Shown here: one piece after another, positions 24,356-61,511 of the stretch
Layout: each line of letters begins with the position of its first letter
Numbering within the stretch: the stretch's first letter is position 1
NCBI GenBank assembly: GCA_963377175.1
Contig: CAUJNA010000486.1
Coordinates: forward strand, 153,566 to 217,565
Source: Effrenium voratum
Lineage: Eukaryota > Sar > Dinophyceae > Suessiales > Symbiodiniaceae
Length of the DNA: 64,000 nucleotides
Reading direction: 5' to 3'
The notes under the pieces: model-generated
Databases searched by the model: none
What the model saw: the letters and a program-made list of their open reading frames with translations, nothing else
What the model was told of the DNA's origin: nothing
Made by a program: the position numbers and the translations under genes

Positions 24356-24359
24356 CCTG

Positions 24360-26296: not shown

Positions 26297-26352
26297 ATTT
26301 GCCGCGCAGCGCCACATGGCCCGATTCCAAACAGGAGGCGCTCAGGCGCGCG
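26297..26352 (+). CDS. Weak candidate exon, LPRSATWPDSKQEALRRA
   Basis: Acceptor gtctttggcag, GT donor at 26353. One frame has coding-like codons, but the other two are open too. Confidence 0.35.
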
Positions 26353-27793: not shown

Positions 27794-28158
27794 CTTCCAT
27801 ACACGCCATCACAATCCGGCCATGCAAGTTTATTTCAGCTTGCGATGCTCAAGTTCACGGCTACGGGGGGGTGGCTTGGACGTACGGGCGTCGTCGCTGT
27901 GTTTTTACAATTGTTCCATTTCCCCATGGTTTCGCATGGTGTCTCATGTTTGCACCCATGCTGTTCCGCATGGCTTCCAGTGTTTTCCAATGTGTTTCCC
28001 CACGTGTTTCTCATATCACGACAGGCGCCAATTGTGTCCGCCAAAGCTCGCTATTTAAACTTCATGCCAATTCGCCTTGTGAGTTCTAGCTGAATCATTG
28101 AATCGGGAGAGTCCCGCCGGGTGCGTGACGCGTGGGAAATCTGATCCTTCTGCCTTAG

Positions 28159-28211
28159 GCCCCGTCATCGGCCGTGTGACCGACACCACGGCATCCTTCC
28201 TCTTGGAGGCC
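28159..28211 (+). CDS. Exon: GPVIGRVTDTTASFLLEA (PhoD-like gene)
   Basis: Acceptor tctgccttag, GT donor at 28212. The GPVxGxVTxTTAxxLxE motif begins the N-terminal beta domain placed before PhoD-like phosphatase domains in many protists. Confidence 0.65.
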
Positions 28212-37200: not shown

Positions 37201-37242
37201 CGTAGCCACGTTGGGCGGGTAAAACATCCCACTTGCCGGTCG

Positions 37243-37340
<98 letters not shown>

Positions 37341-42365: not shown

Positions 42366-42396
<31 letters not shown>

Positions 42397-45300
42397 ATCT
42401 ACTTGAAATTTAGATAGACAGTGAACCATCCGTCTAGTTGTAACCATGGTGTAAGTGGGATTTCCATTGGAAGACTATGTCTGATTGTGAGTAGAGTTCA
42501 AGGAGGACTTCCTGTCACTTTCCATTTTTTACCTATAGTTTGAATAGATTTCAATACGGCACCCTTGCTTGCTGCTTTCCCCAAAGCACAACCAAAGGCG
42601 GAAAACTCCGCAAATACACTTAAATTCTGAACAAGATGGGTATTTCAGGGGGTAGTCCTGATATATATATATATATATGTATACATATTTGTATATATGG
42701 ACCCCCTCCCCTCCCCCATGCACCTGCGCCCTGGCCAATGATACTCGAAATTACGGTTCCTTTCCGGCATCTTTCCTGCCACTTTTCACCCCTTGAAAAA
42801 ATAAGAGTCAAACGAGGTTCCCAGATCGAATAATAAGGGCCCGCAGGTGTAAAACAACTTCAAGCCTTTGGACACGACTGTATCGGTTTTGGGACAAGTG
42901 ATGGACATCGATTTTAAGTTGAAAGAACCATGCAAGGACATGGATCACTTTTACAATTCACTATTGTTTCAGTTTGAACTAGCTACTAGCAATTTAGATA
43001 TTGCGCTGCATGTTGTTACTTTTAACACAAGCGTTATCCGCGTCAAACGCGTTGGGAGCGATCTCAGAGGAGTTAATCGAGCGCGCAATGGACGGCCGCA
43101 GCAAACGAAACCGCTGAAAGCAAGACACAAACACAGCCAGCCACGTTTAGCTTGGTTAGCTACTCGTGCAAACGAGACTGGGCGTATGGCTTGGCGCCGG
43201 CTTGGGATTGCAACTTGTTTATCTGCGTTTGAATCGAAGTCCATCCCTTCAGAAGGTCAGTGCCGGTCACTCCGAACACACGATGATTGAACCCCAGGTC
43301 GTTGAATTTCCTTTCAGGAAATCTTCTGCACATGCAAGGGGCATTTTGCAAACCTCTCGTTCTCAGCCAGCACCGTCTTGCCCAGTTATTCTGTTTCCCT
43401 TTCCAGTATGCCAAGGGAACCATCGTTCAAGGACTAACCCATGATTGGTTGGTCACTATGGTAATGTCAAACTTGTGGGTTCCCTGGGCCGGGCTAAGGG
43501 GTTCTGCATGCTCAGCGCGTTCTGACTGGGGTTCTCCGGATTCCCAAGACGGGATCCGTTGCTCCTTCTTTGCTCCAGGGCGATGCCGATGCCAGCCCGG
43601 GGCTGAGGAACAATGTTTTTTCACCATTTTGAGGGGTGCCCAAGAATGCCTAGGGGTCCACCCCTGGTTTCCCCAAAAGAAATCCAGCCAAAGGGTAGCC
43701 TACCAATTTACGTCAAATCCTCAAAGTGGGTTCTGTTTTTTTGTTTGTTTCCGTGGGGTCAACTGAAGTCTTCCGTCACCTTGTTGGGGACTCCGCCGCC
43801 TCAGTCTCTGTCTTCATCCACTTGCACAGGCGGGGTATGAATCTGTTGCAAGGTTTCTGCATGTTATGCATGTATGCATTGTGTGCCTCTACATATGTGC
43901 AGACCTGCCTGGATGACTGTTTGTATTTGTCTTTATCTTTGTCTTTGTCTGTCTCTGTCTCTGTCTGCCTGCCTGGCCGCACGCCTGCCTGACCGCCTGC
44001 CTCCCTGAGGCTTAATTACCGAAATAAGAACAAGTGTCGCACATTACAGCAAAATCGGATGCAGCATGAAATTGCAATCATGAAGCATCGCTGTTCTGGG
44101 AGGCAAACTTCGGAGGATGGGAAGAAGCGAACTTGTTTTGAGCGCATTCACCCCTTGTAATGTGTTAGAATCAAGGGTAAGATTAGATCTGCCAGCCTCG
44201 ACGATGAGCGAACTCTGTCCCAACCGGTCCCAACGAATGCAAGCACCCTGAGAATCAACCAAGTAAATTCGATGAGTCCAAGAAGAGAGGGGCCCTTTTG
44301 CGGCGTTTGTCTTTTGTTGAGGACATATGAAGGGTATCGGCGTCCTCAACCCCAGTGCTTCCATTTCCTTAAGGTCACCCCTTGTATTCTTTACGATGGT
44401 ACCCTCTTTAGTTTTTTTTTTTTTTTGGGGGGGGGTTCCCTTACTGTAGGACACGCCCAAGTAGTCGTGTGGGCCTGAAAAGCCTCAGGCCTGTTGCTGG
44501 GCGACATCCACCAGCTCTTGTGCCTCGGATTGGAGGCGAGAGTTTCTCGTTCGCCTGGACCAAATGAGTGCTTCCAACAGTGGACAGCCCCTTTGGGATT
44601 GTGTTTCTAAAGAGCTCTCCAAGGAGACCAAACAGAGGGGACTCCTATTTTGAGAACGCCCCTCCCCAAGAAAAGCAAGCAAACAAACAACGACAATACA
44701 AAGGGGGGTCCGCTTTTTGCAAATTAGTGTCTCTGCTGCAAGAGATACGGATGGGGCGACCGATGAAATTCCTTTCAGAAGGAAGCTGAACGATTGTTAC
44801 AGAGATACAGGCTGGCCATCACAGTGGTTTTGCAGGGTTTTGCCACGAGCCATGTGTTTTGGGATCGTTTCAGGAACCTTGCCCCAAACTGCTCAACCAC
44901 CATGGGCACCGAGCTGCCTTGAACTTTCAACATGGAGCACCTGTGCCCTCCAAATGTGCGGGTGGTTGAGTAACGGTCTGAAGTATTCCAAAGCTGGGAA
45001 TTCAGAGTCTCGGACAGATTTCTGATTTATGTCTGAAGACTTGAATATTGCGAGAGAAAGGACGGGAGGAGACGGCATGTTGCACCACGAACGCATCTGG
45101 ACCAATACTTGATTGTTTGGAACACCATGGAGCAACAAGAAGGGAAAGAAAAAGAGAGCAAAGAAAGACGATGTGACTACAGCTTCCCATGAAACTTGGC
45201 TTGCCCCCCAACGCTCCCTGTACGTAGAAGTAAACCTACTCGCGGTGTAATGCATCTGTTTTGGTGGGGAACTTCAAGGGTCTCAAATAGCATATATTCG

Positions 45301-48300
45301 TGCCGCACGAGGGTGCGGTTTCCGTGTTCGCTTGCTTCATACAACTTAGCACCCTGACGCACCGTATTCTTGCGAGATAGGACATCAGCTGCGCCTGTGT
45401 CGCTTTCGCCTCCTCCTCCTCCGGAGGTCTATCGGGAGTACCAACGATCTCTGTGGGCTTGGCAGCCTGCCGGTTGGGGCTGGATGAGAGCGGAGAGCCC
45501 CATTCGTACCTGGCACACCCTCCCTTGAAGACACTAGGGGTCGACAGGGCGTGGAAGGGAAGCAGTCATGTTGCACAGGCTCTTTTGTCTTGGGTTGTGG
45601 ACTGCCCCCTGCATCATTTCGCATCATTGACTAAGCCAGGTGAGTTGGCAATATGAGATTTGCCTGGATTTGCAGTCCGCTTAGCTGGTCTTTGGGGACA
45701 GGAGCACTACTGGTATCCTCCTTTTCTATTGCTTGATTAGACAATGGAGGGGTCAATCCCAAAAGGAGGCCGGTTGTGGGCCATCATTCCACCGGTGACA
45801 CGAGCAATACGTTTCAGCACTGCAACCAGATGCAGGCCCTCCCTTTCGGGACATGCTATAGATCAACATGGCGGTTTGTATTTGATGTCGACGCTAGACC
45901 TAGCCACCTGAGCAGCGCCCGAAAACCCTGTCTACGGGCCTTACTGGGATTTCGCAATTCGGTTCATTATTTTGACACTGTTCGGGGGTTAACCTACCCC
46001 CAGGGTGACTTCGACCATGCTACAACCGCGAGCAGTTTGAGGAGATAGAATCGGGTAGACCATGGGACAGTTCGAGAGTCTTTTTTCAACCATGGGTCGG
46101 TGAATGCCCACTCATCGTTCACTTTACTCACCCTAAGGAACGGAGTTGGCACTTTTAGCCATCTTTACTCACCCGCCTCATCCTGGCCATCCGCTTCACT
46201 CACCTCACTCTCTTCACTTCACTCACTTCACCTGACTCACTTCACCTCGCTCACTGCACCTCACTCACTCACTTTACTCTCACTTTACTCACCTCACCTC
46301 CTTTGACTCACTTCTTTCAACTTCGCTCATCCACTCGTCGTGTACTTTCACGGCCGAGGACGGCAGCTTCCACGTCGGGCTGGCCACACAGGTGCTGGGC
46401 CAGGGCTGGCTGGATGCAGGGTCCCCCAGGCTGAAGGGCCTGGGTTGTTGTGTGGGTTCCATATGATCCGTTAGAAAAATGGGGCTTTCTGCCCCAAAAC
46501 GCAGCAACACGTCTGAAAAGCCTCCAGCAGGATTGTGGGTTTAAGTGGGACCCTACTTCTTAGCATGGCAGGTGCTGAAGAGGACATGAAGCTTGCGGAT
46601 CATTTGTCAACATGTGCAAGCATTCGGAAAGAGACGTGAGAAATGTCGCTTGGAAGAAAGTTGCAGTTTGGCTACAGGCCTTGCCCACGCCCCCAAATAG
46701 GTTTTTGATACCTTATTTCCCAATCCTTCTCTTGGTCCAAGTTAGCAAGTTGGGGGTGGCAAAAGCAGGCCCGCAAAGGGTGGACGCCTATGTGGTGTTT
46801 CTTGGTTAGGGGGGCTATTTTTTCCCTTTGGTTCCCGAAAAAGCACCAAAAGAGTTCATTTTGACAACGCTCCACGCGCCAAATGTTGGTTTGCCTCCCA
46901 GTCAAGGTTCCTGACAAGCCAGCGGCCGAACAGGAAGAGGCGGGGCAATCAAAACCCGGGTGGGGGCTAGTCAGGGACACTGACAGTCCCAACCATAAGT
47001 TGGTGCGGATATCCGCTCTTTTGAGTGTTGATTCTGAGCGACATGCCGAGCTCACTAGACTCTCAACCGAAAAACAAAGGGACCATTTGGATAGCGACAT
47101 GTTTTGACAGCGTTTGCATGTTTTGCTGAGCGGCGTTTCTGGGTTTCTCCCTCGAGCACTGGCGAGGCCCTTGGCTGGCTGAGCTGTAGCCAAAATGCTG
47201 CTTCCCCCACTTGGGAAGCAACGCCAAGGGGCGAAGATGTGCCAACCGCACTTGTTGCATGTGCTGTTCCAACCATCTACCACTGACATTTTTCCTATTT
47301 TTCAGACACGTGTCAGCCCAATGCAGACGCAGGCCCGAAGATTCATGTCAACCATCAGGGACCGTGACGAAAGGCTTCTTGAGCCTTAGGCTCCCAATGA
47401 TTGTTCCCCACTCTCCTCACTTCCCTTACTTTGGGTAATTGCCATGCAACACTCAAGTTAATAATTTGTTTGATGCACACTAGAGTGAAAGCAGATGGTA
47501 CAAATTCCTTGGGCAAGTAAAGGGGATGACAAGTGACCAACATGGGTTCGGATTGTACCCTCCTACTGACCCCTGATTTTCAGTGAGGCTCGCTTCTTTT
47601 TCCATAGTCTACACAAGTATCTACTCAAATCGACTCATGACTCCAACAGTGTCAAACAAGCCCCTAGAATCAGTCAAAGTATTGAACCGAACTGTAAAGC
47701 CTCAGTCCATGTTGCCATGGAACCCAACAGGGGGTCCCTTACAAAAAACATTTTTCAGGACCTCGTGAGGTTCCACGTATTTGAATAAGACAATCCCCAA
47801 GACCCGCGGTTTTTTGTGGGAGCGGCTGCGCATTCAGGAAGATGAGGCCGGCTTGGAGCCGGGCACTCGGATCAGCCTTGCCGATTTGACTTGGTACATG
47901 GGCCCGGGTTGAGATCCGAAACTCGCGGATTTTTTGAGGGACATGCAGTTTCTTATGACATCTTATTACAAGTTTGGCAAGGGACAGGATTTTGGTGAGC
48001 CCATGAAGCTGGGAAGGAGGACGCGCTTATTCTGCCTCGCCATGAACATCGGTACATCGGTACACGTTCGCCTTGAATCCAGGAAATGCAAAGGGAACCA
48101 TGGGTTCAGGTCTAGTAGTCTAGTGAGGTTTCTTCTCTTCTCTTCCAGAGCAACAAATAGCCGACCAGCTCGGGGCTTGGCAGGGCACTATGCATCATTG
48201 CATTGGGCCGGGCTGCCCTCAAGATTGGTTGGCGCACATAAACTTGCATGCCAAATGTAAATGGTGTCCACCAAGGGGTGCCTGATTAAACTCATCACTT

Positions 48301-51300
48301 CTTTGGTGCCAGCAACAGGATCGCATAGGTGTCCTTTCAGGTGAGTTTGGACATGATAACAAGCGTTTGCAAACCGTGTGTCCTAAAATCGAGAACATGT
48401 GAACTTGACCGGCATTCTTCTCTGACTTCCGTTTCAACGTTCACAAAGCAGTGCTTCCTGTTTTTCTTGGACACGCCCATCTATTTGTCCAGTGTTTTTC
48501 CCATTGGTTTTCCTTTAAAGCCAAGCTAAGCACGGGGAAAACCACCGCGCCTCAATCGGGACACGTCGGATGGGACCCCCGAGGTACTTGGTGGACGCCG
48601 GCGCGATCGCGGACTCCGTGGAGGCAATGGGAGCACAGCCTGCGGTCGTTTTGGGGGGACTGGGGGGACAGGGGTCGCTACATTGCTCACAAGATTTGGG
48701 GAGTCAGCAGCAGAGTACGCGAATTTGTTGAGCGTGATGAAAGCAATACCTTCAGTGGAACCGGGCTGTTTCGTTCCATGTCTGTTTCTTTCCATGGTTG
48801 GAAGTGGATGATGCGGACCTTCCCCGAAAGGAAATAGTCTTCCTGGAAGGGCAGGTGTACTTTGTGTTTTTTTCCGGCTCGATGCTTTGTTCATTGGTTG
48901 GGGAGGACAACAAAAGGAAAACCACCAGCTGGCTGGGTTTAAGGGACGAGCAAACAAGTAGGGGGTGACCTACAGCTCTGGTGCACTGATCACGCCAACT
49001 CGGCTGGGTCTTTGCCGCGTGATTCAGAGGGCAGAGCAGGGGGGTTGACCATTTACCCACTTGTCAATCAGCATTGAGGTTTCCAATCACCAGCCAGGCG
49101 GTGGTGGATCCATTTGGCTGTGGGTTAAATAGCTATCCAAAATGGAACTCTGGTAAGACACGAGGACTAAATCCCGGTCCCCTGGTGGTTGAATTTTGAT
49201 CCATACCCATTTTCTCTTTTCGACCCATGCCCACTCGCAGTTTCGCTTTCTGCGCGCCAGGAGTGGCACATCCACCGGTACGGCCCGGCCACGATTTTGG
49301 TGCTGGACACCAAAGGCTCGGGACGAATTGGACATGGTCCCCTGAAATTCCACGCGCCTGGTACCCCCTGGAATTCCGTTTGTAGTTCTGTGTTTTGTGC
49401 ATGGCTTGGCACGGGCCATGTCGCCTGCCGTTTTGTCCCAGCAACTTTTAGGCATGTTGTTGTCAAGAATTGCATGGTTTTTTCCTGGGCGAAAAACAAC
49501 AACGCGCGCAGCCAGCAGTTGATGGCAGAAGGCGACAGGTCATCTGAACACGGGGGATTTTGCCCACTCCGTTTGGAGCCGTTCGGGGCAAAACACACGG
49601 CCGTGGAACCCCGCAAAAGTGGGTTGCCTCAGACATAGGCCGGAACTCCCTAGTTTTACAACGCCCAATTGGCCTTGAATTCCTGGGGCCCATGGGCGTG
49701 TCTTTTTAAAGGGGCCTCCAAAGCAACCAAAAGGTAGCCTTACACAACTACATACTACATTTGCTCGGGACCAAGCGCTTTCAGCCAGGCAATGCGATGA
49801 CGGCTGCTGGGGCCTTGGCATCTCGGAACCTCAAGATGGGGTTGGCTCAGAATTGAGGACCTCCGCCCGCCCCCCAAAGAAGAAAGAGAAGAAGAGCAAA
49901 GCCCTGGTTGGTTGCCCCTGGGTCTCCCTTTGAACCAACCAAACACGGAACAAACAAAGTTTTGGTTGGTTTGATTTTGGTCGTCCTTTGAACCAACCTT
50001 AAGAAGGGTTTCCCCGTTTAGAAGACTCACTGGTCGGATTCCTGAAGGGTTCCCTCAGAGACACTTAAGGGTTGTTTTCAAGGGTTCCCTTCACTCAAGG
50101 AACTCCTTTGAAGAGAGAACAACCCGCATTTGAGGCTGTGCCCCTCTTATGCAGGGATGTTGGTCGTTTTTTGGAGATCTGCAGCTCCCTCAGCTGGACA
50201 TCGATTCCTCAACCGAGTTGTCATTCACCCTCAGCTTGCCTGCGATGTGCGTTGCTTGAAGCCGAGCGGCTTCCAGGCTTCAGGCAAGTCAAGGTTAAAT
50301 TCTGACCAACACTTCTTTTCACAGTACCATCCAACCAACTAACATGGAGCCTGACAGAAACCCAACCCCTTTAAAAGGAGAATCGTCTTCCATGTGAAAA
50401 GGGTTGGAGGGTATGTCCTGAAATTCAATCAGATGTCTTGTTCTTTAGACGTCCTCCCGGTTTGGGTGTGGGCAACCGAAGGGGACTTCAGCACCGCACG
50501 GGTGAATCCATGGCTTGAGGCACTGACCAGCACTTGGCGCGGGACCCATTTGGCCGTCAGGAAAGCGGGATTCAAATGCTGGGCCTCCCTTTGATTTCCC
50601 CCGACGCAAAAACGGCACCTGGCAAAAATGACACCCCCATTTGGGAGGGACATGGGAGATGCGCGCGCGGTCTCTCTCTCGCTCTCTCTATCTCTCTTTC
50701 TCCCTCTCTCTCTATATGTATATCTATGTCGTATATCTCTCTCTCTCTCTCTTATTTTCCATATCCACTAACAGTAAGTTGCGACTGCGGACAGCGAGGC
50801 TGCTGTGACTAAACGCAGTTTCTTGCATTCTTGAGGGACTTCTGCAGATTCGAAACACAGCAAGTCCACTGATGGAATTGCTTTTAGGCATTTGTCGGCT
50901 GCATTTGGTTTCTGGTTTGTGTTGATAGGGGTTGGCACAATCGCATCTATATCGTACATATAGATATCTTTTGAATCTATGTTTTGCTGGATGCCGACTT
51001 CCGCTGCCAGCCTTGCAAAATGCTCTGCGCACATTTGTTAGGGGTCCAGTCGCCTGGTCTGAGTAGGGAAATGAGGTCGGTTTGTGCGAGAACCTACCCG
51101 TGCCCATCGGCCTCCCATCAACCATTCCCGGGAATCATGCATACGAATCGCCTTTCAGCTCAGACTTCGAACGGACCCAAGCTGAAGTCCGGTGGGCGGT
51201 GATTTTCTTACCAGGAGGGGTTGCCAAGGTCCGTTTGGCCCCACCAAGCCTCCCTTTGGCTCGTGAATCCCCCCCTTAGATGCCCTCGGGGCCCTAGCAG

Positions 51301-52564
51301 CCCCCTTCTAATCCACGAAATTTGGGGGTTTGGAGCCGCTGAGCAGTGCCGCAAAACACTTCTTGGGTTTGTATCCCTCAAACGCCAGGCCGCAAAAGGT
51401 TCTCTCGGAGAAGCAGTGGGAGGCCATCGACGAGGCTGGCCAAAGGGGCGAGGAGGGCTTGGAGCGCGACGGGTTGCTCAGGTTTCAAAAGCGGAGGGGG
51501 GTTGTCGTGGGGAGGTCTTTGCGTGTGTCTTTGTTCTAACCAAACGATTTGGTTCGGCAAAGCCATTGAGGTCGCAGCCGATTGGCTGTGTTTCATTTTT
51601 CGGAGAAGTCCCACCTTTCGGGTATGGTTACACGGTATGGTTGGACATATAGCAATGGTCATCTACCTTACCGGACCTCGCCATCCAAGCCATTTGTCTC
51701 AAGCCACGGGCTCTGCGTAGGTCTCACGCTCGGCCCAGTTGAACGGCATGGCCATCGACGGTTTTGAGCTGCCCTGTGCTGTCACGGCAGTGTTTGTCTT
51801 GCACTTCGTTTTCGTGGACACGTTTGCCGTTGGGGCTGCTCGAACACCCTTTCAACTCAAGTATCCCTTCACTACAGAGCTGAATGACCCAAGGCAGCTG
51901 GAGCCATTTATTCGAGCGTTGCGTGCGCAACAAAACCAGGTGGAGCAGGCTTGGGCCTTTTTCCTGGCCATGTGGGTGTGCTCCTTTGCGCTGGATGCCA
52001 ACTTTGCTGGAGTCTGTGGCATTGTTTGGGTTCTGGCCCGGATGGCCTATGGCTACTTGTATCGGCTGAATCCCAGCCGGAACAAGTTGATATGGTGCAC
52101 CGCTCCAGCCTACGCTGCGCAGGCAATGTGCTGTGGTGGCATTCTCACCGGAATTCTGCCATATTCTTTGCCGGTGTCTGCCGGCATCTCCAGCATTGTG
52201 GTGATTTTCTTCGCCATCTATGGCTGGTTTGTATACCGCCCTTGGCTTCAACAGTACGTGGAAGAGGAGAAGAGCAGATACGATGCTCAGCTCATTTCGC
52301 GCTGACCAACGCGTCTGCGATGAAAAAAGCAAACATCCAAGGCACAACAGCCGGACATAAACTATGGTTATCACGTCTCAGTGGGTTGACCAAGGCACTT
52401 CCCCCCCCCCCCAACTCCACCCCAACTCCACACAACTCCTCGCCCCCCACCTCCCTCTCCACTCCCCCCTTGGAACTTGGGCCGCTTTGGTGCAGGCGCT
52501 GTCAGACGAGATGGCCCAAGCACTGCTGCTGGTGTCGGACACCCCGTTGGCGCTGGAGGAGTCG
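28159..52564 (+). CDS. PhoD-like metallophosphoesterase, many exons, probably inactive
   Basis: Best exons: 28159-28211, 29529-29579, 32457-32543, 35478-35543, 36769-36840, 38780-38861, 39547-39604, 45389-45489, 49261-49336, 51399-51434 and 52496-52564. Less sure: 40083-40180, 40952-41024, 44489-44535, 46359-46391, 47838-47907 and 48584-48623. The motifs follow the order of eukaryotic PhoD-like proteins: GPVIGRVTDTT with a VTFQLQNLKPDTP strand (N-terminal beta domain), DSDPWKELQKSV, the block where HxGDQxY should be (here LQVGRSY), SYRITRGPRPI, YREYQRSLW, HRYGPATILVLDTKG, LSEKQWEAIDEAL and LLLVSDTP. The usual Asp of HxGD and the DDHE block are not conserved, so catalysis is doubtful. Several junctions are in phase, others remain open, and the 5' and 3' ends are not defined. 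Confidence 0.6.
29529..29579 (+). CDS. Exon: VNGHKDRFDRQMVLLGQ (PhoD-like gene)
   Basis: Acceptor ggctcgtgag, GC donor CAG|GCGGGG, phase 0 at both ends and compatible with the previous exon. Confidence 0.5.
29580..32456. other. Presumed intron of the PhoD-like gene
   Basis: Contains the telomere-like tract. A short GC-rich open frame at 30762-30965 (GLILLESILPLRPRLGILRY) lacks good splice sites and is not called. An exon may be hidden here, because the phases of the flanking exons do not match. Confidence 0.35.
30427..30730. repeat. Telomere-like degenerate CCTAAACCC tract
   Basis: About 300 bases of CCTAAAC, AACCC and CCCTAAAC variants on a C/A-rich strand, like eroded interstitial telomere repeat (C-strand of TTTAGGG). 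A similar tract is at 53590-53880. Confidence 0.7.
32457..32543 (+). CDS. Exon: LRPGLPVTFQLQNLKPDTPC (PhoD-like gene)
   Basis: Acceptor tgtgtctcaag, GT donor at 32544. LPVTFQLQNLKPDTP is the F-x-L-x-x-LxPxT strand that ends the N-terminal beta domain. The tail RGKTRMEMG is less certain. Confidence 0.6.
33205..33320 (+). mobile_element. MITE-like element, second copy
   Basis: Shares CCTAAGAAT, GATGATTCCCC, AAGACCAACAA and CCATGGTTT in the same order as the copy at 19078, with ends GGTACTGTG and CCATCCACCATAGTA. More diverged. Confidence 0.45.
34177..35031 (-). pseudogene. Unrecognised antisense frame with a single internal stop
   Basis: One reverse frame is open for 285 codons from 35031 to 34177 except for a TGA at 34720-34722. 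The first part reads YATVNPLFNTDHFEKARIAE and GRHILPAAAEARGRIVPQND. Other reverse frames also look coding around 34560-34740 (DNPHRRADPSLENACW), so frameshifts are likely. A CTG run makes the Ala repeat. Could be a processed gene fragment lying antisense in an intron. No family recognised. Confidence 0.3.
35478..35543 (+). CDS. Exon: DSDPWKELQKSVASGLE (PhoD-like gene)
   Basis: Acceptor caccggaag, GC donor GAG|GCGAAG. DxDxWKEL...V with a short spacer precedes the metal-binding block in PhoD-like proteins, and the next exon supplies that block in phase. Confidence 0.6.
36769..36840 (+). CDS. Exon: substituted HxGD block (PhoD-like gene)
   Basis: Acceptor ccgcatcgccag, GC donor GAA|GCCTGT, phase 0 to 0. 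Reads VQVALQVGRSYAAEIFDQVW then REQE. Aligned with the family pattern D-L-V-x-H-x-G-D-Q-x-Y-A-D-x-x-F, the His is Gln and the Asp is Arg. Confidence 0.58.
37244..37336. repeat. (GT)n microsatellite, about 46 units
   Basis: Uninterrupted TG run. The long CVCV frame over it is an artefact. Confidence 0.95.
38638..38756. repeat. Three tandem copies of a unit of about 50 bases
   Basis: Each unit has GGGAAAGTAGACAGTGAAAT and GCATAGAGGCA-like parts. Directly precedes the next exon. Confidence 0.75.
38780..38861 (+). CDS. Exon: MLKEARNLLRESYRITRG (PhoD-like gene)
   Basis: Acceptor ggctgccag, GT donor at 38862. The pattern x-LLRE-x-YR-x-T-x-G-x-P is the segment after the metal-binding block, where relatives have YRxTW. 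Confidence 0.58.
39547..39604 (+). CDS. Exon: AVRAGSGLRTLLRMGREE (PhoD-like gene)
   Basis: Acceptor ccacgtgcag, strong donor gtgaga, phase 1 in and phase 2 out, which match the neighbours. Position and the AVRAGSxL start fit the block that in active relatives reads LRxGSNLMxxDDHE. Here the DDH is gone. Confidence 0.5.
40083..40180 (+). CDS. Candidate exon: APTGPNDSPVEPAGEICSNL (PhoD-like gene)
   Basis: Phase matches the previous exon. Continues as SVFQAPLDLPCG. Several possible GC or GA donors lie between 40155 and 40189. Confidence 0.42.
40952..41024 (+). CDS. Candidate exon near a triple-open stretch
   Basis: Acceptor tttggggtgcag, GC donor CAG|GCTGGA. All three frames are open. The frame SPALLRDVPTLRTLLQRAHE then LDEQ looks best by composition but not by phase. 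Confidence 0.33.
41455..41960. repeat. Large imperfect inverted repeat built from AAACCGTTTGAACC
   Basis: Left half (41455-41640) repeats CCGTTTGAACC, TTTCTCAGAGGAAAGG and TTTGGGCC. Right half (41690-41960) carries the inverse words GGTTCAAACAG, CCTTTCCTCTGAGAAAGGG and GGGCCTTGA. The units are themselves near-palindromic, so the whole can fold into a cruciform or long hairpin. Confidence 0.75.
42366..42390. repeat. Poly(T) tract
   Basis: 25 T in an AT-rich 300-base stretch (42090-42560). Confidence 0.9.
44489..44535 (+). CDS. Candidate exon: LLLGDIHQLLCLGLE
   Basis: Acceptor aaagcctcag, GC donor GAG|GCGAGA. Hydrophobic with a GDIHQ string. Placement in the PhoD-like gene is by position only. 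Confidence 0.42.
45389..45489 (+). CDS. Exon: PPPPPEVYREYQRSLWAW (PhoD-like gene)
   Basis: Acceptor aggacatcag. A Pro run then YREYQRSLW, which matches the YxEYQRQLW signature after the catalytic centre in PhoD-like proteins. The GC donor at 45490 keeps phase 0, but the 3' edge could be at 45464-45472. Confidence 0.55.
46160..46358 (+). repeat. TCAC-rich pyrimidine stretch ending at a splice acceptor
   Basis: About 190 bases of CTCACTTCA-type repeats with almost no AG after 46165, ending gccgag before the exon at 46359. It may serve as an extended polypyrimidine tract. Confidence 0.5.
46359..46391 (+). CDS. Candidate short exon: DGSFHVGLATQ (PhoD-like gene)
   Basis: Phase 0 in and out, donor CAG|GTGCTG. 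The frame continues as VLGQGWLDAG if this is not the donor. Confidence 0.42.
47838..47907 (+). CDS. Candidate exon: EDEAGLEPGTRISLADLTWY (PhoD-like gene)
   Basis: Acceptor tgcgcattcag, GT donor at 47908. It joins in phase to 46359-46391 and 48584-48623. Confidence 0.45.
48584..48623 (+). CDS. Candidate exon: YLVDAGAIADSVE (PhoD-like gene)
   Basis: Acceptor acccccgag, GC donor GAG|GCAATG. Phase fits the exons on both sides. Confidence 0.45.
49261..49336 (+). CDS. Exon: EWHIHRYGPATILVLDTKGS (PhoD-like gene)
   Basis: Acceptor ttctgcgcgccag, GT donor near 49337. H-x-H-x-YGP-x-x-ILxLDT[RK]G is a hallmark strand of PhoD-like phosphatases, and the Asp is kept. Confidence 0.62.
50650..50755. repeat. 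CT microsatellite cluster
   Basis: Alternating CT/CTCTAT runs in presumed intron. Confidence 0.85.
51399..51434 (+). CDS. Exon: VLSEKQWEAIDE (PhoD-like gene)
   Basis: LSExQWExxxE is the family motif before the LLVVSSTP strand. GC donor GAG|GCTGGC; joining to 52496 gives AIDE|ALSDEMAQALLLVSDTP with no gap. The exon may start at 51389 (PQKV...). Confidence 0.62.
51688..51703 (+). promoter_or_regulatory. Relic dinoflagellate spliced leader
   Basis: AGCCATTTGTCTCAAG against the conserved leader end AGCCATTTTGGCTCAAG: one base lost and one substitution over 17. It lies 44 bases upstream of the MAPEG ATG. Such relics arise when a trans-spliced mRNA is reverse-transcribed back into the genome. Confidence 0.6.
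51748..52305 (+). CDS. MAPEG-family membrane protein, intronless
   Basis: 185 codons from ATG at 51748 to TGA, without introns. The product has the MAPEG signature RAQQNQVEQ (R-x3-N-x2-E) after the first membrane segment, then ARMAYGYLYR. Hydrophobic segments are at about residues 8-28, 70-88, 93-107, 120-140 and 147-162, for example IVVIFFAIYGWFVY. MAPEG proteins are small ER or membrane enzymes acting on glutathione conjugates and eicosanoids, or have unknown substrates in protists. An in-frame TTG at 51739 lies just after cggcccag, so that AG may be the present trans-splice acceptor. No stops or frameshifts, so it is probably functional. It lies inside a PhoD-like gene intron. Confidence 0.85.
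   Translation: MAIDGFELPCAVTAVFVLHFVFVDTFAVGAARTPFQLKYPFTTELNDPRQLEPFIRALRAQQNQVEQAWAFFLAMWVCSFALDANFAGVCGIVWVLARMAYGYLYRLNPSRNKLIWCTAPAYAAQAMCCGGILTGILPYSLPVSAGISSIVVIFFAIYGWFVYRPWLQQYVEEEKSRYDAQLISR
52496..52564 (+). CDS. Exon: ALSDEMAQALLLVSDTPLAL (PhoD-like gene)
   Basis: Acceptor ctttggtgcag, GT donor gtattt at 52565. The LLLVSDTP strand matches the LVVVSSxP strand of PhoD-like proteins. If the donor is not used, the frame reads SVFCGRAAP and stops at 52591. Confidence 0.62.
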
Positions 52565-53589
52565 GTATTTTGTGGCCGCGCCGCGCCATGAACCCCAACA
52601 TCAAATGCTCTGGTAAACACGGGATAAACAAATGGTTGGGAAACTACAAGATGATGTTTCCAACATGGGAAAAGCTTCCCGTGGTCATTTGGTGGTCATT
52701 TGGGGACCAAAGAGAATATTGATCAACACCCATATGTTTGTCGAAGCATGGTGGTACTCCTGAGTTTGGCAAAAGTCTTATTCCAACCGTTTTGGACAAC
52801 CATGAGCCATGAGCAAGTTTTCTTCTAGTAAGCTAGAAGCGTAACTGATTTTTCTTCCCAAAGCACCTTTCGGTGCCATTGCCAGAGCGGCCGGATGCCA
52901 GCTGACAATATGACTTCCTGGTCTTCGGTTCCCAGCCATACCGGTAAGACTCTTTAGACTTTTGGAGGGACGGAAACAGAGTTAGGCGTGGAAGGGAGAC
53001 GGGAAAGGGAGAGTTAATCCTAGGTCATCTCCTTTCTCTCGTCTGACGGTTTATCCCCTGTCCACTTTCCTTTCGTACGCCATCAATAAGCCATGCTCCA
53101 CTAAAAGTTTAAGTTGTTGCAAGCAATGTCCAGGACCCGGTAAGCAGTGGTTCAACGCCGTGGTCCCCCCTGCCGTTCGGACAAGACATGTGACATGAGC
53201 GTAGGCCCTCCGTGACGTGGTTTCGAGTGGGTCTTGAGTGACCTTGGGAGGCAAGACTCTACCGCCTGCATGGGTAGGGTCCAAATTTAGAATTCAAGGT
53301 GGGGTCTCCTACGAGCATGGCCTTTTAGCTCAGCTTAGGGCATACACGACAATGGATTCAGTTGGGTTGTAGTCATTTACCAGAGGGCTAGACATTTCAA
53401 TGAAGGACCTGTGTTCAAGTCTTTTCGGAAACAATCCAAAACCGGGCCCCCAGTTTTTCCCGCCTAGGTTTGGCGTGCCGGGTCGTCGGTCGTTGGCCAG
53501 TCGGTCAGTCAGCGCTTTTTTGGTTTTCGCGGTTTTTGTAGCTTTGGCTTTCCACATCCTCAGCATCACCAGCAACCCTTAGTAGCATC

Positions 53590-53880
53590 ACTGCCAGGAT
53601 AGTGTTTGTAACCCACCCCAAACCACAACCACAAACCCTATGCCCAGCCGGACCAACCCTGAACCCGCCCGAAACCCACACTAAACCAGCAGGATTGCAT
53701 TCCTATGCCAGCCCAAACCTATCGTAATCCCACCCTTAACCAGCACTAAACCAACGCTAACCCTTCCCTAGCCAACCTAGACCAACCGTGAACACAGCGT
53801 ATAGAAACCCAAGCCCCGCCGAAACCCACCCAAGGCAATCCTTGACCCCACCCCAAACTCAATCTAACCCAAAGCTTCTG
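53590..53880. repeat. Second telomere-like degenerate AACCC/CCTAA tract
   Basis: Same composition as 30427-30730 (AAACCCTATG, CCTAACCC, AACCCACACTAAACC). Confidence 0.65.
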
Positions 53881-54011
53881 GTGATGCTGGGAGTGTTGAA
53901 ACGATGCCGGGAATGTTGACGGTGCTGTTGCAATGCAGGTGCGCTTGTTTTAAGCACATGCCGTGAAATGCGTCGTTTCAGCACCTACAAAACCCAGAGA
54001 AAAAAACGGCC

Positions 54012-54168
54012 CGCCATGGATGTTTGCGAAATCCTTTCGCACTACTTCGAAACCATAGTTGAAACCATTGTCACTGTTGGTATTTACAGGGTAACCATCC
54101 CAAACCAGGGTTTCTGAACGGCAGTTCGGAATGATTTCGTCCATCCACAATAGGATTTCCGCCTCCAA
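54012..54168 (-). mobile_element. MITE-like element, reversed copy
   Basis: On the reverse strand reads AGAAACCCTGG, GTAAATACCAACA and AATGGTTTCAAC in order, flanked by TGTGGATGGACGAAAT and its imperfect inverse. Lies in the long stretch after exon 52496-52564. Confidence 0.45.
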
Positions 54169-54937
54169 AAACGCAGGAGGCAGAGCCACGCGGTGTCGTG
54201 GAGACGAATGTGGCAGCTGGGTCCTCAGGTGCCAAGATTTGATCCTTGTTTGCCAAGAGTGTATGTGACTCTTACTTGTTTTTGTGGCTACATGGTGACA
54301 AGATGGTGGTTTACATTGCAGTATGCTTGGTGGTGGTTGGGTGACGGACTTTTGTAAGTTTTTTGATGTGCCCAACATTATCCTTCATACTTTCTTGACG
54401 CATAGCAATAGGTTAGACTTGAGAAGGCTAGACATTCCCCCTGTGCTGTTGCACAGGCTGAAGCCAACGCCCTTCGAACCCCCAAGTCTCATTGAAAAGG
54501 CTTTGAGTACCGCTTCGCAGCTGACCGTAAGGTTGCAAGTTGTGAGAAGCAGCATGTGAAAGGCCACTCGCCTCGGTTTTCCCAAATTCTATGACCACTG
54601 ACTCCCCAGGACTGACAAAACAGCTACTGGAACCTCGGACTCTCTGCTTGAAGCCTCGAGCGAATTTCAGCGCCGTTCTTTAGTGGGCCCCAAAGTAGTA
54701 TTGGTACAAGCCAGGGACACATCAGAGAACCGTTGGTTTTTGGGGCCTTGTGTTTGTGCTTGTGTGTGTTTGCCAAAAGAGAGACCTCCGAAATGAGTGG
54801 TTTCCTTTTGATTTCGCCTCAAAACAACTCAACTTGTTGGCACCACAAAAGCACCCACACCCACAAACACAGCGCAGGTTGCAAAGAGCCTCGCGATCGT
54901 CCGACAGACCGGGCTGCGGTCGTTTTCTTTTCCCCAG

Positions 54938-55025
54938 GCAGCTGATGTTGGCTTCGTTGGCGGCCACCGCTGGACCATGTCCTGGGCGCTCCCCGCCCGA
55001 TTTGGCCGTTCGACTTGGGCGATGG
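54938..55025 (+). CDS. Doubtful exon after tttccccag
   Basis: Good acceptor and GC-rich content, two competing frames, and no clear donor. QLMLASLAATAGP is reminiscent of the strand after the W-rich region of PhoD-like proteins. Confidence 0.32.
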
Positions 55026-55135
55026 GAGCCCACTTGGGCTTCTCTCAAAATCGGGTCCATTAAAGTTATCCGAAAGGAGGGTTCCCCGAAAAAGGACACA
55101 CCCATTTCAAGAGGACATTCAACTTGCCACAAAAT

Positions 55136-56680
55136 GAAAGGTAGGGGCAGCCATCCTGCGAATTCAGCAGATAAGATACCATATGTCCATCCTAACACAC
55201 TGACATGGATTCCTAAAAGGGGTTTCCATCCCGAAAGATGATTCCTCTTATGAGAACAATTTGGCTTGAATGCAGATTTTCGGTTCTGATGTTGGTTTGC
55301 TACTCTTCTGGTGTTGCTTGTTGCTCGCCGATAGGAGGGGCTTTCCCAATTTTAGCTTGCAACCCTTTATGTGCGCGGGTCTCAGGTACCTTTTCCCTTC
55401 CAGACCCAAGAAGGCCAATTACTCTGCAAAAGGCAAATCCTTCCCCAGCCTCCGCACACGCACGGCTTCCACGTCAGGAGATGGCGAACGCGCCGGCCGG
55501 GTCGCCTCGCGGATCACGCGCATCACGCGGATCACGCGGATCGCGCGAATCGCAGGCTGGGATGAGTTGCAGGGTTCAGGGGACACGTTCTCCACTTCCA
55601 TGAGATGAACCGTATGATTGCTGTTGGCAGAAGGCAGTTTTTTTTTGGGGTCCACGTGAAGGGGCAGTCATCAGACGTTGATGAGCATACGCAGGCATGT
55701 GTTGTTACAGGCCTTCGAGAAATTTGAATGCCTAGAGAGGGATACGTGCCACCAAAACTGTGGCCATACGTCAGCACGTAGTCGCACTGTCAGTGTTGAA
55801 AGGTAGGGGCCATCATGCGAATCCAGCAGATAAGGTCGGATATGTTCTTCCTTACACACTGACATGGATTTCCTTTTAATATAATATTTTTGGCATTCGA
55901 TGCTCATTTTCAGTTCTGATGTTGGATTGCTACTCTTCTGATGTTGCTTGTTGCTCGCCAATAGGAGGGGCTTTCTCATTTTTTTTTGTCTGATGTTGGT
56001 TTGCTACTCCTCTGATGTTGCTTGTTGCTCGCCAATAGGAGGGGCTTTCCCTTTTTTTTTTCCACGACCCTCTATGTGCGCGTGTCTTAGGCACCCTTGC
56101 CCTTCCAGACCCCAAAAGGCTAATTACTCTGCAAAAAGCAAATCCTCGCCCCCATTCAAGCTGGAGGCTCCGCACACACGGCTTCCATGTCAGGAGATGG
56201 CGAACGCGCCGGCCGGGTCGCCTCGCGGATCACGCGCATCACGCGGATCACGCGGATCGCGCGAATCGCAGGCTGGGGATGAGTTGCAGGGTTCAGCAAA
56301 CGGGCCCAAGCTTGCACCAAGGGACCATCCTGTGTGCAAGGGTCACCCAAAGGGTTTAGCAAGTCACGGAAGTGCTACGAAGAGTTTTGGAAGGCTACCA
56401 TCATCTTAATGAGGCCCCCTTTTCCACTTCCATGAGATCATATTTGCGAAATGGAGCTATCTTTTCCGACAATTAGCATAGAACCATATCATTGTGGGAT
56501 CTTCTGCCAACTGTTGGCAGAAGACATTTTTTGTTGGGTGTCCATGTGAAGGGGCAGTTATCAGACGTTGATGATCATACGCAGGCATTCGTTGTCACAG
56601 GTCTTCGATAATCTCAATACTCGGAGAGGGAACCATGCCACCAAAACTGTGGCCACTGGGCAGCATGTAGCTGCACAGAA
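55136..56680. repeat. Tandem segmental duplication of about 660 bases
   Basis: Copy 1 is about 55136-55796 and copy 2 about 55797-56680. Shared landmarks in order: GAAAGGTAGGGGC...CAGCAGATAAG, GATGTTGGTTTGCTACTC, GCTCGCCAATAGGAGGGG, GGAGATGGCGAACGCGCC, the ATCACGCG run, GTTGGCAGAAG and CATACGCAGGCAT. In copy 2 the TTGCTCGCCAATAGGAGGGG part is doubled again, and about 125 bases are added near 56297-56420. Confidence 0.85.
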
Positions 56681-57280
56681 AAAGGAGACCTTCGTGACGT
56701 CCCCAATTTTTGGCGTATGTAAAGAGGAACTCAAACTCAAAGGAACACCTTCATGTTAGGGGTCCCCCCAATTTTACACCACATGGATTGTGTCACAGTG
56801 TCTCCGTGAGGCATCCAAAACCGCGGAGGATGTCAAGGCGCTTGGCATGGGTACTGTGGCGTGGGTCGTTCAGCAAGTCAGCTAGCCCTCTTTGGACAAT
56901 GAACCGAGTGCTTGGTTTAAAACCCCAGTATTTGGAGGAAGGACCAAGCCAAGAAGGGACAGCTACTTGATACGCGCCAAAGCTTGCCCAGGCATATGTC
57001 TGGCCGTTGCGGCCGAAGTGTGCCTCTGCCTAGCACTGCAGGATGCAGCTGGCAGCGTCGGAGAGGACGCGCAAGTGACAGCCGCCAGTGCGGAAGAGGA
57101 CACGCAAGTGGTAGTTGCGGGGGCCTCAGGGTGTGTCGGACTGGCGTTTGTTTGTGTTCTCTCCGCCTGAACCCCTGGTTCTTGTAGAGGGTAAATGGGA
57201 AGCCACTCCAATCACCAAATAGAGGGAAGCTGACTTCCCCCTGGAATTGGATGCGCGCAAATCTCTGCAAGGCATCGCAG

Positions 57281-57330
57281 GGCAGCAAGGAGAATGGCTT
57301 GGAGACCGGCCTGAACACGGATAAGGTCAG
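57281..57330 (+). CDS. Candidate exon: GSKENGLETGLNTDKV
   Basis: Acceptor ggcatcgcag, strong donor gtgagtg at 57331. Phase fits the next candidate. The acceptor and first bases are repeated at 59288. Confidence 0.45.
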
Positions 57331-57599
57331 GTGAGTGTTCATTGGGCGTCTTGAAATTGGGGAGGCGGGGGAATTGGGTGGTTTCCTTTTGGGTTCGCTT
57401 TAAAACCAACCAAAAAAGGGTGCTACTCAGCCATGGGTTTTTCTGTTTTGAGACAGGCCAGGCGTCGGATCTACCAAGGAGCCTTGGACTTGCGGAACTG
57501 CGGGTGTCGTTTGGTGAACTGATGCGCAGACTGCAAGGTTCAATCTGCCCTGCCAGTGGAGGATTTGTGATTGGTTCAGCGCCAGCAGTTTTACCCAAT

Positions 57600-57905
57600 A
57601 TATACAGATATATATATATATATATATAATGTTATATCTTTGTATGTGTACAGAATATATTTCAATATTAAATTGAAATTCCTTTCAGCCCCCTCTTAAG
57701 AACATATTTGATCATTATGTCAAAGGCCTCTGAAACTGAAGGATCTGCTTTGCATCTTCAAGGTGGGTCCCGGGAGGCAGGGAGGGTAGCATGTGTATAT
57801 GTATATAGATCTATCTCTCTCTCTCTCTCTGGATACATGTAAATATAAATATGAATATGAATATAAATAAATAAATGAATAAATAAATAAATATATATAT
57901 ATATA
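57600..57905. repeat. AT-rich microsatellites
   Basis: TA runs at 57599-57628 and 57889-57906, CT at 57808-57831 and AAATATAAATA-type runs between. Confidence 0.85.
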
Positions 57906-58135
57906 TACATACATATGGGGCGCCTACCCCAGCAGTACCTGGTTGCGCCCGTGGACGATGGCCATCAATGGCGCCGTCTGGTGGAAACATAGACGGGTCT
58001 ACCTCCATGGCGCCCACAAGGACGGTTTCTTCCTGACTCTTTCCTCCAAACATGGGGATGGCCATTCAGGCTCCCTACCATTCAGGCTCCTAAGGAGGCC
58101 CGGTGGGTTGGGTTGGGGGGGGGAGGGGGGGCTAG

Positions 58136-58199
58136 GTTTTCCGCGATGGAGAAAAGCTCGCGCGAGGCGTCCGACGCCTCGGCCCAGAGCGAGCCGGAG
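58136..58199 (+). CDS. Candidate exon: FSAMEKSSREASDASAQSEP
   Basis: GC-rich block after ggggctag, GC donor GAG|GCGGGT, phase 2 in and 0 out, matching both neighbours. Polar, probably disordered. Confidence 0.42.
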
Positions 58200-58317
58200 G
58201 CGGGTGGCCTTGAAGGGGGGGGGGGTTGGGGTGACTACATGTCTTGCGAGAATGACGTGACAATCTCCGCTTGGGCTGGGTGTCACTCTTCTTCTTGCGC
58301 TTGGCCTTAGAAAGCGC

Positions 58318-58600
58318 GTACCTCCGTTGCAAGTGGCAGCTGGCTTTCGCTGTACTCCAGACCATGCCACCATGCCTGGAGCCACGCATGGCATGTCTTC
58401 GAGGGAAGCAGTGCAGCGTGCCTTACCGCTTTTGGGAACATGCCGACAGACGCAGACATACCCCTCAGCCTGCTGCGCGCTATCGCAAATGCCTGCATGC
58501 AGGGCACGCAGTGGCGTCAGGCTTTGGCTTGTTCCCAGGCCTTTACAGGTCTGCAATGCTTCTTTGCATGGTGTGTAAGCAACAGTAGCAGGTGTTTGCC
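58318..58600 (+). pseudogene. PPR-like relic
   Basis: KWQLAFAVLQTMPPCLEP (58337) and SLLRAIANACMQGTQWRQAL (58463) resemble the dinoflagellate type of pentatricopeptide repeat (ISACEKGxQWQxALxLLxxM). The two parts are in different frames and no longer reading frame joins them, so this looks like a decayed copy. PPR proteins bind organelle RNA. Confidence 0.4.
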
Positions 58601-59300
58601 TTTGCGCATTCCATGGATGGAGTGCAGGCGCCGCTGAGCTGTGCGTTTTGTTGCGGTTTCTGGTGCTTCGGGGTGGTGTCACGCCTTCTGCCTAGACTGC
58701 AGGAGACAGAGAGCGCGCGAGAAGGCTCCCAGCTTGCCGGCAGCTGAGATAAGACTCATGGACTTGGCAGCTTAGGTTAGATTTGGGGCTGGGTCTCAAA
58801 CTCGAGTGCGATTGGACGCAGAACTTTGGTGCCAGACTGGACCAAGATTTGACTCATGAGTCCAGATCTGATTCGAATATTCCCTGAGTCAGCGCTCAAG
58901 CCACCGTCATGTACCGCAGAAGAACTGGTGCGCAAGTCCATAGCCGTATGCGCTGTGCCGATCCAGGACGCTAGCGTGGGCGATCCAGGCACGCAAATCG
59001 CACGAGCCTGAGGGTGTGTAAGCAATGTGGACTCCGGAATCAACCTGGTGGATAGGGTGCATCTCCTTGAGAACTGCGTATTCTCTAAACTAAAATAAAA
59101 TGCCCCCCCCCCCCCCCACTCATCAATCTGAGATTTGTACTTGTGTGTGTGTGGGCGCGTGTCTTTTTGGGCGCCAGTTTAAGCTTGGCTTCAAGGGACA
59201 CCAACAAGGACACCGCCATGTTTCCCGAATTTTGACACGTGGAGAGTGTGAGGCCAGGCTCTCTTCAAGTTTTCATGGCCCTCGCGACAAGGCATCGCAG

Positions 59301-59345
59301 GGCAGCAAGGGTCTGGAGAGCGGCCCTGCGGCCTTCGCCGAACAG
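59301..59345 (+). CDS. Candidate exon: GSKGLESGPAAFAEQ
   Basis: Same acceptor context as 57281, GC donor CAG|GCCAGG, phase 0 to 0, so it can follow 58136-58199. Similar in sequence to GSKENGLETG of the earlier exon. Confidence 0.42.
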
Positions 59346-60107
59346 GCCAGGGAACCTGGCCTTGGAGAAGCCGCAGATGTGACGGTTCCATGTTCGGGAT
59401 CCGATGTGGCGGGTTATCGGGGATTTGGCGAGCTATCCGGCGGTGTTCTGCAGGCAGAAAGCGACCGAGAAGGTTCCCAGCTGGTCGGCGGCTCAGGTTT
59501 GGACTGGTGGACATAGACTGGACTCAGACTGCAGATTGGACTTGGATGACTTGCTTCCATTTGCTTAAGAATACGTTCTCCTGCCCTTCTTGGTTGTAAA
59601 TGGAATCTATCACTACGGGACAGATTTTCATTTTTTCCAGGGGGCTCAAGCTAATGGAAGCTTAGGTTGGATTTCGATATTCGTTGAACGCAGATCCCGA
59701 GGATGCAGGCAGCGGAGAGCAAGGCTTGCTGATGGCGTGGGCGCTCAGATCCTTCGGTTTTGCCTGGGTCTGATAAAACGAAGGCAGCGGGGCGTGGTGG
59801 GAGCATGTAATGCAATTCAAACACGCCCTGGAAAGGAAGGCTCTGGCGAATGATCATCGCGAACCAGATAGTAGCGGCTGCAGTTGGGAACGGTGTTAAA
59901 GCGAAACCACCACAAAACAACCCTTTGGTGGCCCTTTTCAGAGATAGACGGCAAAGCAAAAAGTGAGCGTTTGTCGTTTGTTGCCTTGCCAACTTTCTAC
60001 CCAAGAGGCACTTGATTTTGCGGGTTCAACCCCTGCTTTGCATTGGGCGTCTAGAGTGCTCCTGCACTTTAACGGGCATTCAAACGAGTGTGTATGATTG
60101 TGTACAT

Positions 60108-60210
60108 ACACGCGCACACGCGCACACGCGCACGCGCATACGCGTGCACGTGCGCGCGCGCACACGCGCAGACGCGCAGACGCGCAGACGCGCACAGGCG
60201 CACACCACGC
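60108..60210. repeat. CACACGCG simple repeat
   Basis: Alternating purine-pyrimidine CACGCG/CACACGCG units, potential Z-DNA. Open Arg/Ala/His frames over it are artefacts. Confidence 0.85.
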
Positions 60211-60797
60211 GCACACGCGCACACACCCACATTGCTTTACTCTTATTTCCACTAACACGGAAGCCACCTCAGGGTCCATTTGAAGGAACATGGCCTTCTA
60301 ACATGGACCCTTTAGTCAGGACTTCCATGTGAGACAGTTAAGCGCTGGAAGGATTCGATGTGGTTTCAACCATCTCAACGTGGTGCGAACGGATTTTGCA
60401 ACCATCCACAGCGCGCATGAGGCAGAGGGCAGCATCGAACAGGCGGGGCGTTTGGGTCAGTTTCGGTCGAACGTCGGTGTTTTAGTGTTTTGTTTGTTCC
60501 TCGGGTGCCCGTTTCGGGTTTTCTGGAAACCGAAAGGAACAGCAGCAGCATTTATGATTATGAGTGCGTCTGTGCGTCTTTCACGAGGCCCCCCCCGCAA
60601 AAAAAAACCAAGGAAACCAACAAACAACACGGTGGTGCTCCTTCCATATTTTTGGTTGTTCGACACCGCTGGCCGACCTTCAAGAGAGCGGCGGTTCATT
60701 GCAACAGAAGTTTTCGTCTGGACGAGCAGACCTGCTTTCAGCCGAGTGTCCCGTAGAATCATCCAAAAAGGGGGTGGGCGACAGGTTTTCTCTGCAG

Positions 60798-60870
60798 ATT
60801 CGCATGAAGCCAACAACGAGATCCCCGAAAAGCAGATTCCTCTGCACGGTTCCAGCGTTGCTTTGGCAAG
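60798..60870 (+). CDS. Weak candidate exon
   Basis: Acceptor ggttttctctgcag. Phase 0 gives IRMKPTTRSPKSRFL, another frame gives SHEANNEIPEKQIPLHGSSV. No strong donor. Confidence 0.28.
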
Positions 60871-61270
60871 GATTTCCGCATGCCGACCTCTCGATCGCTT
60901 GCAGTAGGTGCGCGCAAGCTAGGTTTGGGGGGATAGGTCCTGAAGGTGAAACGAGCTCACTATGGTCCGGGGGCAACCAATTCCTATTTGGGTTTGTCTT
61001 TTTTGAAGGCACTCCCCCGAAATAAGTGATTTCCCTTTAAACCAACCCGAAAAAGTGCACCCTCAAAAAGAGAGAACCATTTTCCGGTTTTCACTTTGTG
61101 ATTGGCAGATAGGTTGGAGCTCAAATTCGGCATTAAGCAGCCCAAGTTAAGGATGGCTGGCTTTCGCTGGTCCGATGGGAGCACGACGGTTTTCCGACGT
61201 CCTCCAATCGGCTATTTGGTTGCATGAACTGGAGCTGAGCAACGCTGATTCAAACAAACAGATCCTTGTA

Positions 61271-61292
61271 TGTGTGTGTGTGTGTGTGTGTG
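61271..61292. repeat. GT microsatellite
   Basis: Eleven GT units in presumed non-coding DNA. Confidence 0.85.
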
Positions 61293-61478
61293 AAAGAGAA
61301 GCCAGAGACACTAAGAGGAGGCTCGTTAAACCCAATGAGACCCTTATGAGTGTGTCAAAGAGAAACCACAGAAGCCAGGAGGATGTTCTTTTCACTACAT
61401 GGGGTGCTCAGCCACGTCTAGATATGGGGTTGACTGTTGGCTCCACCTGGGGGCTGTTGATTTGCCGAATTGCACGAG

Positions 61479-61511
61479 GCCGGCAGCAACCTGAGCGAGC
61501 TGCTGGGGAAG
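61479..61511 (+). CDS. Candidate short exon: AGSNLSELLGK
   Basis: Acceptor attgcacgag, GC donor AAG|GCACGT, phase 0 to 0, coding-like codons (CTG, GAG, AGC). Unrecognised. Confidence 0.42.

Follow-up and report, generated by a model that had tools for sequence, protein, structure and literature searches.

In Effrenium voratum, a free-living alga related to the coral symbionts, we analyzed a 64,000-nucleotide (nt) stretch of contig CAUJNA010000486.1 (contig C486, 153566-217565; hereafter the window) and found an intact, intronless MAPEG gene lying wholly inside one intron of a large multi-exon gene on the same strand. The best explanation, which we hold with good confidence, is that a messenger RNA (mRNA) bearing the dinoflagellate spliced leader was retroposed into this host intron and that the copy was kept as a working nested gene. 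The features concerned are, in order along the window:

9628..61511, + strand: host gene, the part within the window; 46 exons covering 701 of the 858 residues of E. voratum protein P0016 (spliced alignment)
51389..51434, + strand: host exon 30, ending in ...PQKVLSEKQWEAIDE (spliced alignment and the P0016 and P0020 sequences)
51435..52495, + strand: host intron 30, 1061 nt, GC-AG, phase 0, containing the guest gene
51682..51689, + strand: candidate left target-site duplication CATCCAAG, abutting the leader relic
51690..51703, + strand: spliced-leader relic CCATTTGTCTCAAG, corresponding with changes to leader positions 8-22 (CCATTTTGGCTCAAG); best gapped match
51704..51747, + strand: guest 5' untranslated region (UTR), 44 nt
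51748..52305, + strand: guest gene, an intact intronless MAPEG open reading frame (ORF) of 185 residues plus TGA
52306..52333, + strand: short 3' UTR ending in the A-rich AAAAAAGCAAA (52323-52333), a candidate poly(A) relic (read directly)
52334..52341, + strand: candidate right target-site duplication CATCCAAG, straight after AAAAAAGCAAA
52496..52558, + strand: host exon 31, beginning ALSDEMAQALLLVSDTPLALE... (spliced alignment and the P0016 and P0020 sequences)

Spliced alignment of P0016 to the window skipped no residue across the 46 exons and left two residue mismatches (derived from the alignment score). It placed intron 30 exactly where the first-pass annotation of this DNA had drawn it, with the donor GACGAG/GCTGGC at 51434/51435 and the acceptor GTGCAG/GCGCTG at 52495/52496. 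A GC-AG intron is ordinary for this gene, as 38 of its 45 introns begin with GC (6 with GT and 1 with GA); exons 2-46 have a median size of 40 nt, and intron 30 ranks 39th of 45 in length from the shortest (median 686 nt). The flanking exons were also said to join without a gap, and they do: P0016 and P0020, both named E. voratum proteins, run directly from ...AIDE to ALSDE... without MAPEG, and the aligned Durusdinium and Symbiodinium host proteins are contiguous across the same site. The whole guest gene therefore lies between two exons that the host protein joins, which makes it a nested gene.

The guest itself proved as intact and intronless as had been proposed. Read from 51739, the translated frame has a Pfam match to PF01124 (E = 4e-15) that scores 56.5 bits, over the cut-off of 23.4, and the ATG of the guest is in line with the ATG of most orthologs. 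Fifteen homologues were retained from 451 candidates, the best full-length match being 73% identical, while partial homologues reach 75% over 51% of the query (P0013) and 79% over 21% (P0015). Searched against PDB, the family profile returned MGST2 (E = 9e-07) and leukotriene C4 (LTC4) synthase (E = 2.6e-05). The structure model of the guest is all-helical, with a mean predicted local distance difference test (pLDDT) score of 81.6, and its best Foldseek matches were LTC4 synthase and MGST2. The guest is like MAPEG proteins of the MGST2 and LTC4 synthase type in its PF01124 match, its all-helical model and its retained segment RALRAQQNQVEQAW, which we take to fit the RAxxNxxE-type motif of the family, and unlike them in that the structure match is weak (best E = 0.016, template modelling score 0.38); its activity is predicted only. 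A bacterial origin was rejected, as the 15 homologues include named Symbiodinium and Cladocopium proteins. Among viral contigs, 23 stretches fit a pattern and none encoded a relative, in a collection from which own or near-genome records may be excluded. When 10 window ORFs of at least 100 residues were scanned for other conserved nested genes, no Pfam match exceeded its cut-off (one sub-threshold C19orf84 match, E = 0.00081).

The link to the spliced leader comes from the bases just upstream. The first-pass annotation had claimed a leader relic 44 nt before the ATG; the spacing is exactly 44 nt, and the relic, which spans 51690-51703 in our alignment, is the best gapped leader match on either strand of the 64-kb window. 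Sixty dinucleotide shuffles gave five equally good matches (0.083 per 64 kb, both strands), and of 300 leaders with permuted bases, 18 could be placed in the window just as well. By our own arithmetic, for the 100 nt that precede the ATG on the correct strand, this rate comes to about 6.5e-5. The 8-mer CATCCAAG occurs twice on the + strand of the window, both times flanking the insert, and a fraction of 0.007 of shuffles put it into the right-hand stretch. We consider it a candidate target-site duplication and modest evidence. On that reading the copy would start at leader position 8, one of two common start points in Polarella, for which 70.45% and 69.18% of leader-bearing full-length transcripts are reported to start at leader positions 2 or 8 (PMC7245778). 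Alternatively, the left CATCCAAG bases may belong to the leader relic, which would then be full-length, and form its 5' end (TCC-AAG for TCCGTAG).

A second copy of the same gene was found elsewhere in the assembly:

Contig C3649, 53846-54082, - strand: decayed MAPEG copy, ATG at 54080, with a leader-like relic in front

This copy is intronless and frameshifted, carries internal deletions, and loses homology after about residue 101. Its leader-like stretch CCTGTTTGACTCAAG, with TAG before it, lies 45 nt upstream of the ATG, compared with 44 in the window, and homology between the copies begins inside this relic, 45 nt from the ATG. The relic and UTR stretches of the two copies are alike (7 of 500 shuffles reach the score). 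No homology was detected between the copies in the 300 nt farther upstream (local score 16 against a shuffled mean of 17.3), and a segmental DNA duplication as the source of both was rejected on this ground. Only the 18-base form of the C3649 relic with TAG has no equal in the 64-kb window, and the weight of this relic comes from its place and not from its sequence alone. Because the relics stand at matching distances and homology stops there, both copies probably descend from leader-bearing mRNA. The C3649 copy with its relic gives independent support to the earlier suggestion that an mRNA copy was inserted, on the same strand, into a GC-AG intron; the A-rich stretch and the candidate duplication bracket the insert.

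Leader sequence is widespread in this genome: exact leader 15-mers occur at 2230 places, compared with one for a reversed control. Thirty of these places were read, pairing was counted over the first 100 in the list, and three pairs were viewed as whole elements. Half of those 100 (50) stand in same-strand pairs 4.1-7.6 kb apart that resemble the ends of elements. The 15-mer CCATTTTGGCTCAAG lies inside direct repeats of 101, 112 and 127 nt, 99-100% identical, that bound stretches of 6.5-7.2 kb:

L071, 276-376 and 7447-7547: leader-bearing repeats
L072, 235-346 and 6792-6903: leader-bearing repeats
L073, 343-469 and 6839-6965: leader-bearing repeats

Ten open frames from the repeat-bounded stretches gave no Pfam match over the cut-off, and the stretches look like retroelements with the leader in their terminal repeats, so exact leader matches are not all relics of retrogenes. 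Such elements lend something to a different account, in which a MAPEG gene that was intronless by ancestry reached the intron by transfer of DNA, and the 14 leader-like bases arose by chance or belong to a mobile element. Leader 15-mers do occur here in short terminal repeats of 6.5-7.2-kb elements (three read), several MAPEG relatives may be intronless, and the C3649 relic taken alone is not rare. We nevertheless regard this account as very unlikely, considering that each copy has its relic, 44 and 45 nt upstream of the respective ATG, that homology stops there, and that the bases around the window relic are, by eye, unlike the repeat families.

Constraint on the nested copy was judged from the protein sequences of relatives and a codon comparison of the two copies. 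The ortholog count and the invariant-column test used 10 of the 15 homologues; P0005, identical in the tree to P0006, was set aside, as were P0012-P0015, which are partial or misread. The two copies align without gaps over 73 codons and show 15 silent and 15 amino-acid differences. At the latter, the 10 orthologs favoured the nested copy 13 times and the C3649 copy once, with one tie. As the orthologs side with the nested copy at 13 of 15 differences, the nested copy is, by this count, held to function while the C3649 copy decayed. The nested copy departs from 4 of the 71 columns that are invariant in the 10 other sequences, and each of these ten, tested likewise, departs from 0-4. The MAPEG tree was mostly unresolved (one of eight inner branches starred).

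We searched the whole assembly (1,155,904,702 bases in 3699 contigs) with both the protein and the intron DNA. The protein query returned five matches: the window copy, the C3649 copy (E = 3e-4) and three weak ones (E = 0.46-9.4, 25-38% identity), which we took as chance. The intron DNA returned 59, one of them from the window and two from the C3649 copy; the other 56 matched nothing beyond a C-rich stretch at intron positions 961-1036. Neither search found another intact copy of this MAPEG subfamily in the 1.16-Gb assembly. PF01124 as a whole has 14 matches in the genome, 12 of them over the cut-off and one the window copy; some of the contigs may be bacterial.

These counts bear on whether the nested gene is in use. 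It could be a non-expressed retrocopy that by chance is still intact, and two observations fit: no near-identical protein stands among the 15 homologues, and the third-position G+C content of the guest (0.632) falls between that of the host coding sequence (0.783) and the overall G+C of the host introns (0.506). Against this, the change is assigned to the C3649 copy at 13 of 15 amino-acid differences, the ORF is intact although the nearest full-length relative is 74% identical, and the guest is the sole intact copy of its subfamily found in the assembly. We therefore consider a silent copy unlikely. With no near-identical protein returned, the guest seems to have escaped annotation in E. voratum, for which host proteins are annotated.

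Several points weigh against retroposition of a leader-bearing mRNA followed by retention as a working gene. First, no spliced parent gene was found in the assembly by the protein and intron-DNA searches, which ran in six frames, exon by exon, with the best candidates scored, and could miss a parent with very small or diverged exons. The family may be largely intronless: three of its full-length proteins, P0001, P0004 and P0008, come from long contigs. Second, the leader evidence has its weak sides. Ungapped leader searches (up to 3 mismatches) miss the window relic because it has lost bases, and a gapped search was needed; for the C3649 relic alone, 12 window places fit the full leader equally well and 11 the 15-base core; and the likeness between the relic and UTR stretches of the two copies, at 7 of 500 shuffles, is modest. 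Third, about 11% of shuffles, and likewise of real stretches, yield some 8-mer common to the two flanks, and the guest 3' UTR would be only about 17 nt long. Finally, the guest has a third-position G+C of 0.632 against 0.783 in the host coding sequence and a negative host-codon score (-14.5 for the MAPEG frame, which ranks first of the six, with one antisense frame at -15.9), and it lacks a near-identical protein among the homologues. A spliced MAPEG ortholog with the same flanks had been named at the outset as an observation that would tell against an inserted mRNA copy. None appeared, but P0015, whose flanks are unread, reads as if two introns were retained (in-frame inserts judged by eye).

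Weighing these points, we favor the following history for the nested gene. Nesting, intact frame, relic, decayed second copy and constraint are observed in it, whereas retroposition as the mechanism, expression, choice of acceptor and promoter are inferred. A MAPEG mRNA with a trans-spliced dinoflagellate leader would have been reverse-transcribed from about leader position 8, and the cDNA inserted in the same orientation into an intron of the large, many-exon host gene. The parent would have been lost, or was not found in the assembly, and the nested copy would have persisted as the subfamily's working gene. The host would remove guest and intron together through GC-AG cis-splicing, as the annotated host proteins imply. 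AG dinucleotides near the guest start end at 51689, 51703, 51720 and 51738 and are possible leader acceptors; the guest would most likely be expressed as its own mRNA, with a new leader spliced to an AG 9-58 nt before the ATG. Its transcript might arise as read-through from the host unit, or else the TTT(G) motif within the relic might drive it.

Cis-splicing from the host donor to the AG at 51720 or at 51738 would keep the MAPEG reading frame, which is open from 51721 onward, and would fuse 457 host residues to MAPEG. MAPEG could on this basis be an alternative terminal exon of the host, reached from the donor at 51434, which we consider extremely improbable: one acceptor in three is in frame by chance, and the ORF has its own ATG, aligned with those of most orthologs. 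A single host-MAPEG protein, which the first-pass annotation had named as counter-evidence to a nested retrogene, was not found among 457 candidates scored (355-1129 residues). The sole return was P0021 (Fugacium kawagutii Skav218732), a gene model that joins a MAPEG of the same subfamily to an ABC1 domain (PF03109), reflecting either a different neighbour there or a wrong merge. Were this the sole working copy of the MAPEG subfamily in the species, the same splice sites could also make the guest a switch, each transcript being committed either to host cis-splicing (51434 to 52496) or to leader trans-splicing or in-frame cis-splicing at 51720/51738. This seems to us quite unlikely; if true, making MAPEG would lower or truncate host output.

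One element of the first-pass annotation that we could not uphold is the label "PhoD-like" for the host. P0016, P0017, P0018 and P0020 have no PhoD or metallophosphatase Pfam match; P0016 (E = 0.0078), P0017 (E = 0.00059) and P0018 (E = 0.0067) show only sub-threshold matches to DUF7800, and P0020 shows none. Searches of NCBIfam (P0016, P0018) and of PDB sequences (P0018) gave no match over the cut-off, and the host structure model (pLDDT 33) was too poor for a structure search. Elsewhere in the host gene, exons 34 (55478-55555) and 35 (56194-56271) encode the identical 26 residues EMANAPAGSPRGSRASRGSRGSRESQ and represent a tandemly duplicated exon. Intron 2 (10250-28158) measures 17,909 nt, far above the 686-nt median. 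The first exon may be a mispredicted gene start, as the starts of relatives differ.

Both aspects of this locus have precedents. For two Symbiodiniaceae, 22.3% and 23.2% of genes are reported to be leader-tagged (DinoSL) retrogenes, and the leader TTT(G) has been proposed as a promoter for them (PMC6050394; also PMC12014239). As the former, a review that covers Slamovits and Keeling (2008) and Song (2017), presents them, the guest resembles these genes in having a coding copy, a decayed upstream leader relic and a parent that was not found, as for most there ("orphans"). Nothing here differs in kind; the relic is diverged, with insertions and deletions, and ends 44 nt before the ATG, just under the usual 50-100 nt (PMC6050394). 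In two isolates of Polarella glacialis, 4898 (8.4%) and 3359 (6.5%) genes are reported as nested in introns, with full-length transcript support (PMC7245778); literature searches on nested genes in dinoflagellates listed this paper alone as relevant. Like ours, those are whole genes enclosed by an intron of a multi-exon gene, and Polarella likewise belongs to the order Suessiales. In the portion of that report available, nesting is unlinked to leader relics, whereas the guest combines the two and has a decayed sister copy besides; and full-length transcripts are described there, whereas our case is read from genome sequence. In E. voratum, an average gene is reported to be 92% intron, and the main text of the genome paper does not use the word "nested" (PMC11114475). 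Nested genes and leader-tagged retrogenes have thus each been published and are common in this order, and the present case is an example of both at once.

Because no other intact copy was found, retroposition seems here to have replaced a gene and placed the new copy inside another gene. The nested and the decayed copy represent both fates of a retrocopy in one genome. The host is annotated and the guest apparently is not, which suggests that annotation splicing over introns can miss real genes. Finally, this lineage matures its mRNA by leader trans-splicing, and the locus lets the competition between cis- and trans-splicing be tested on one transcript.

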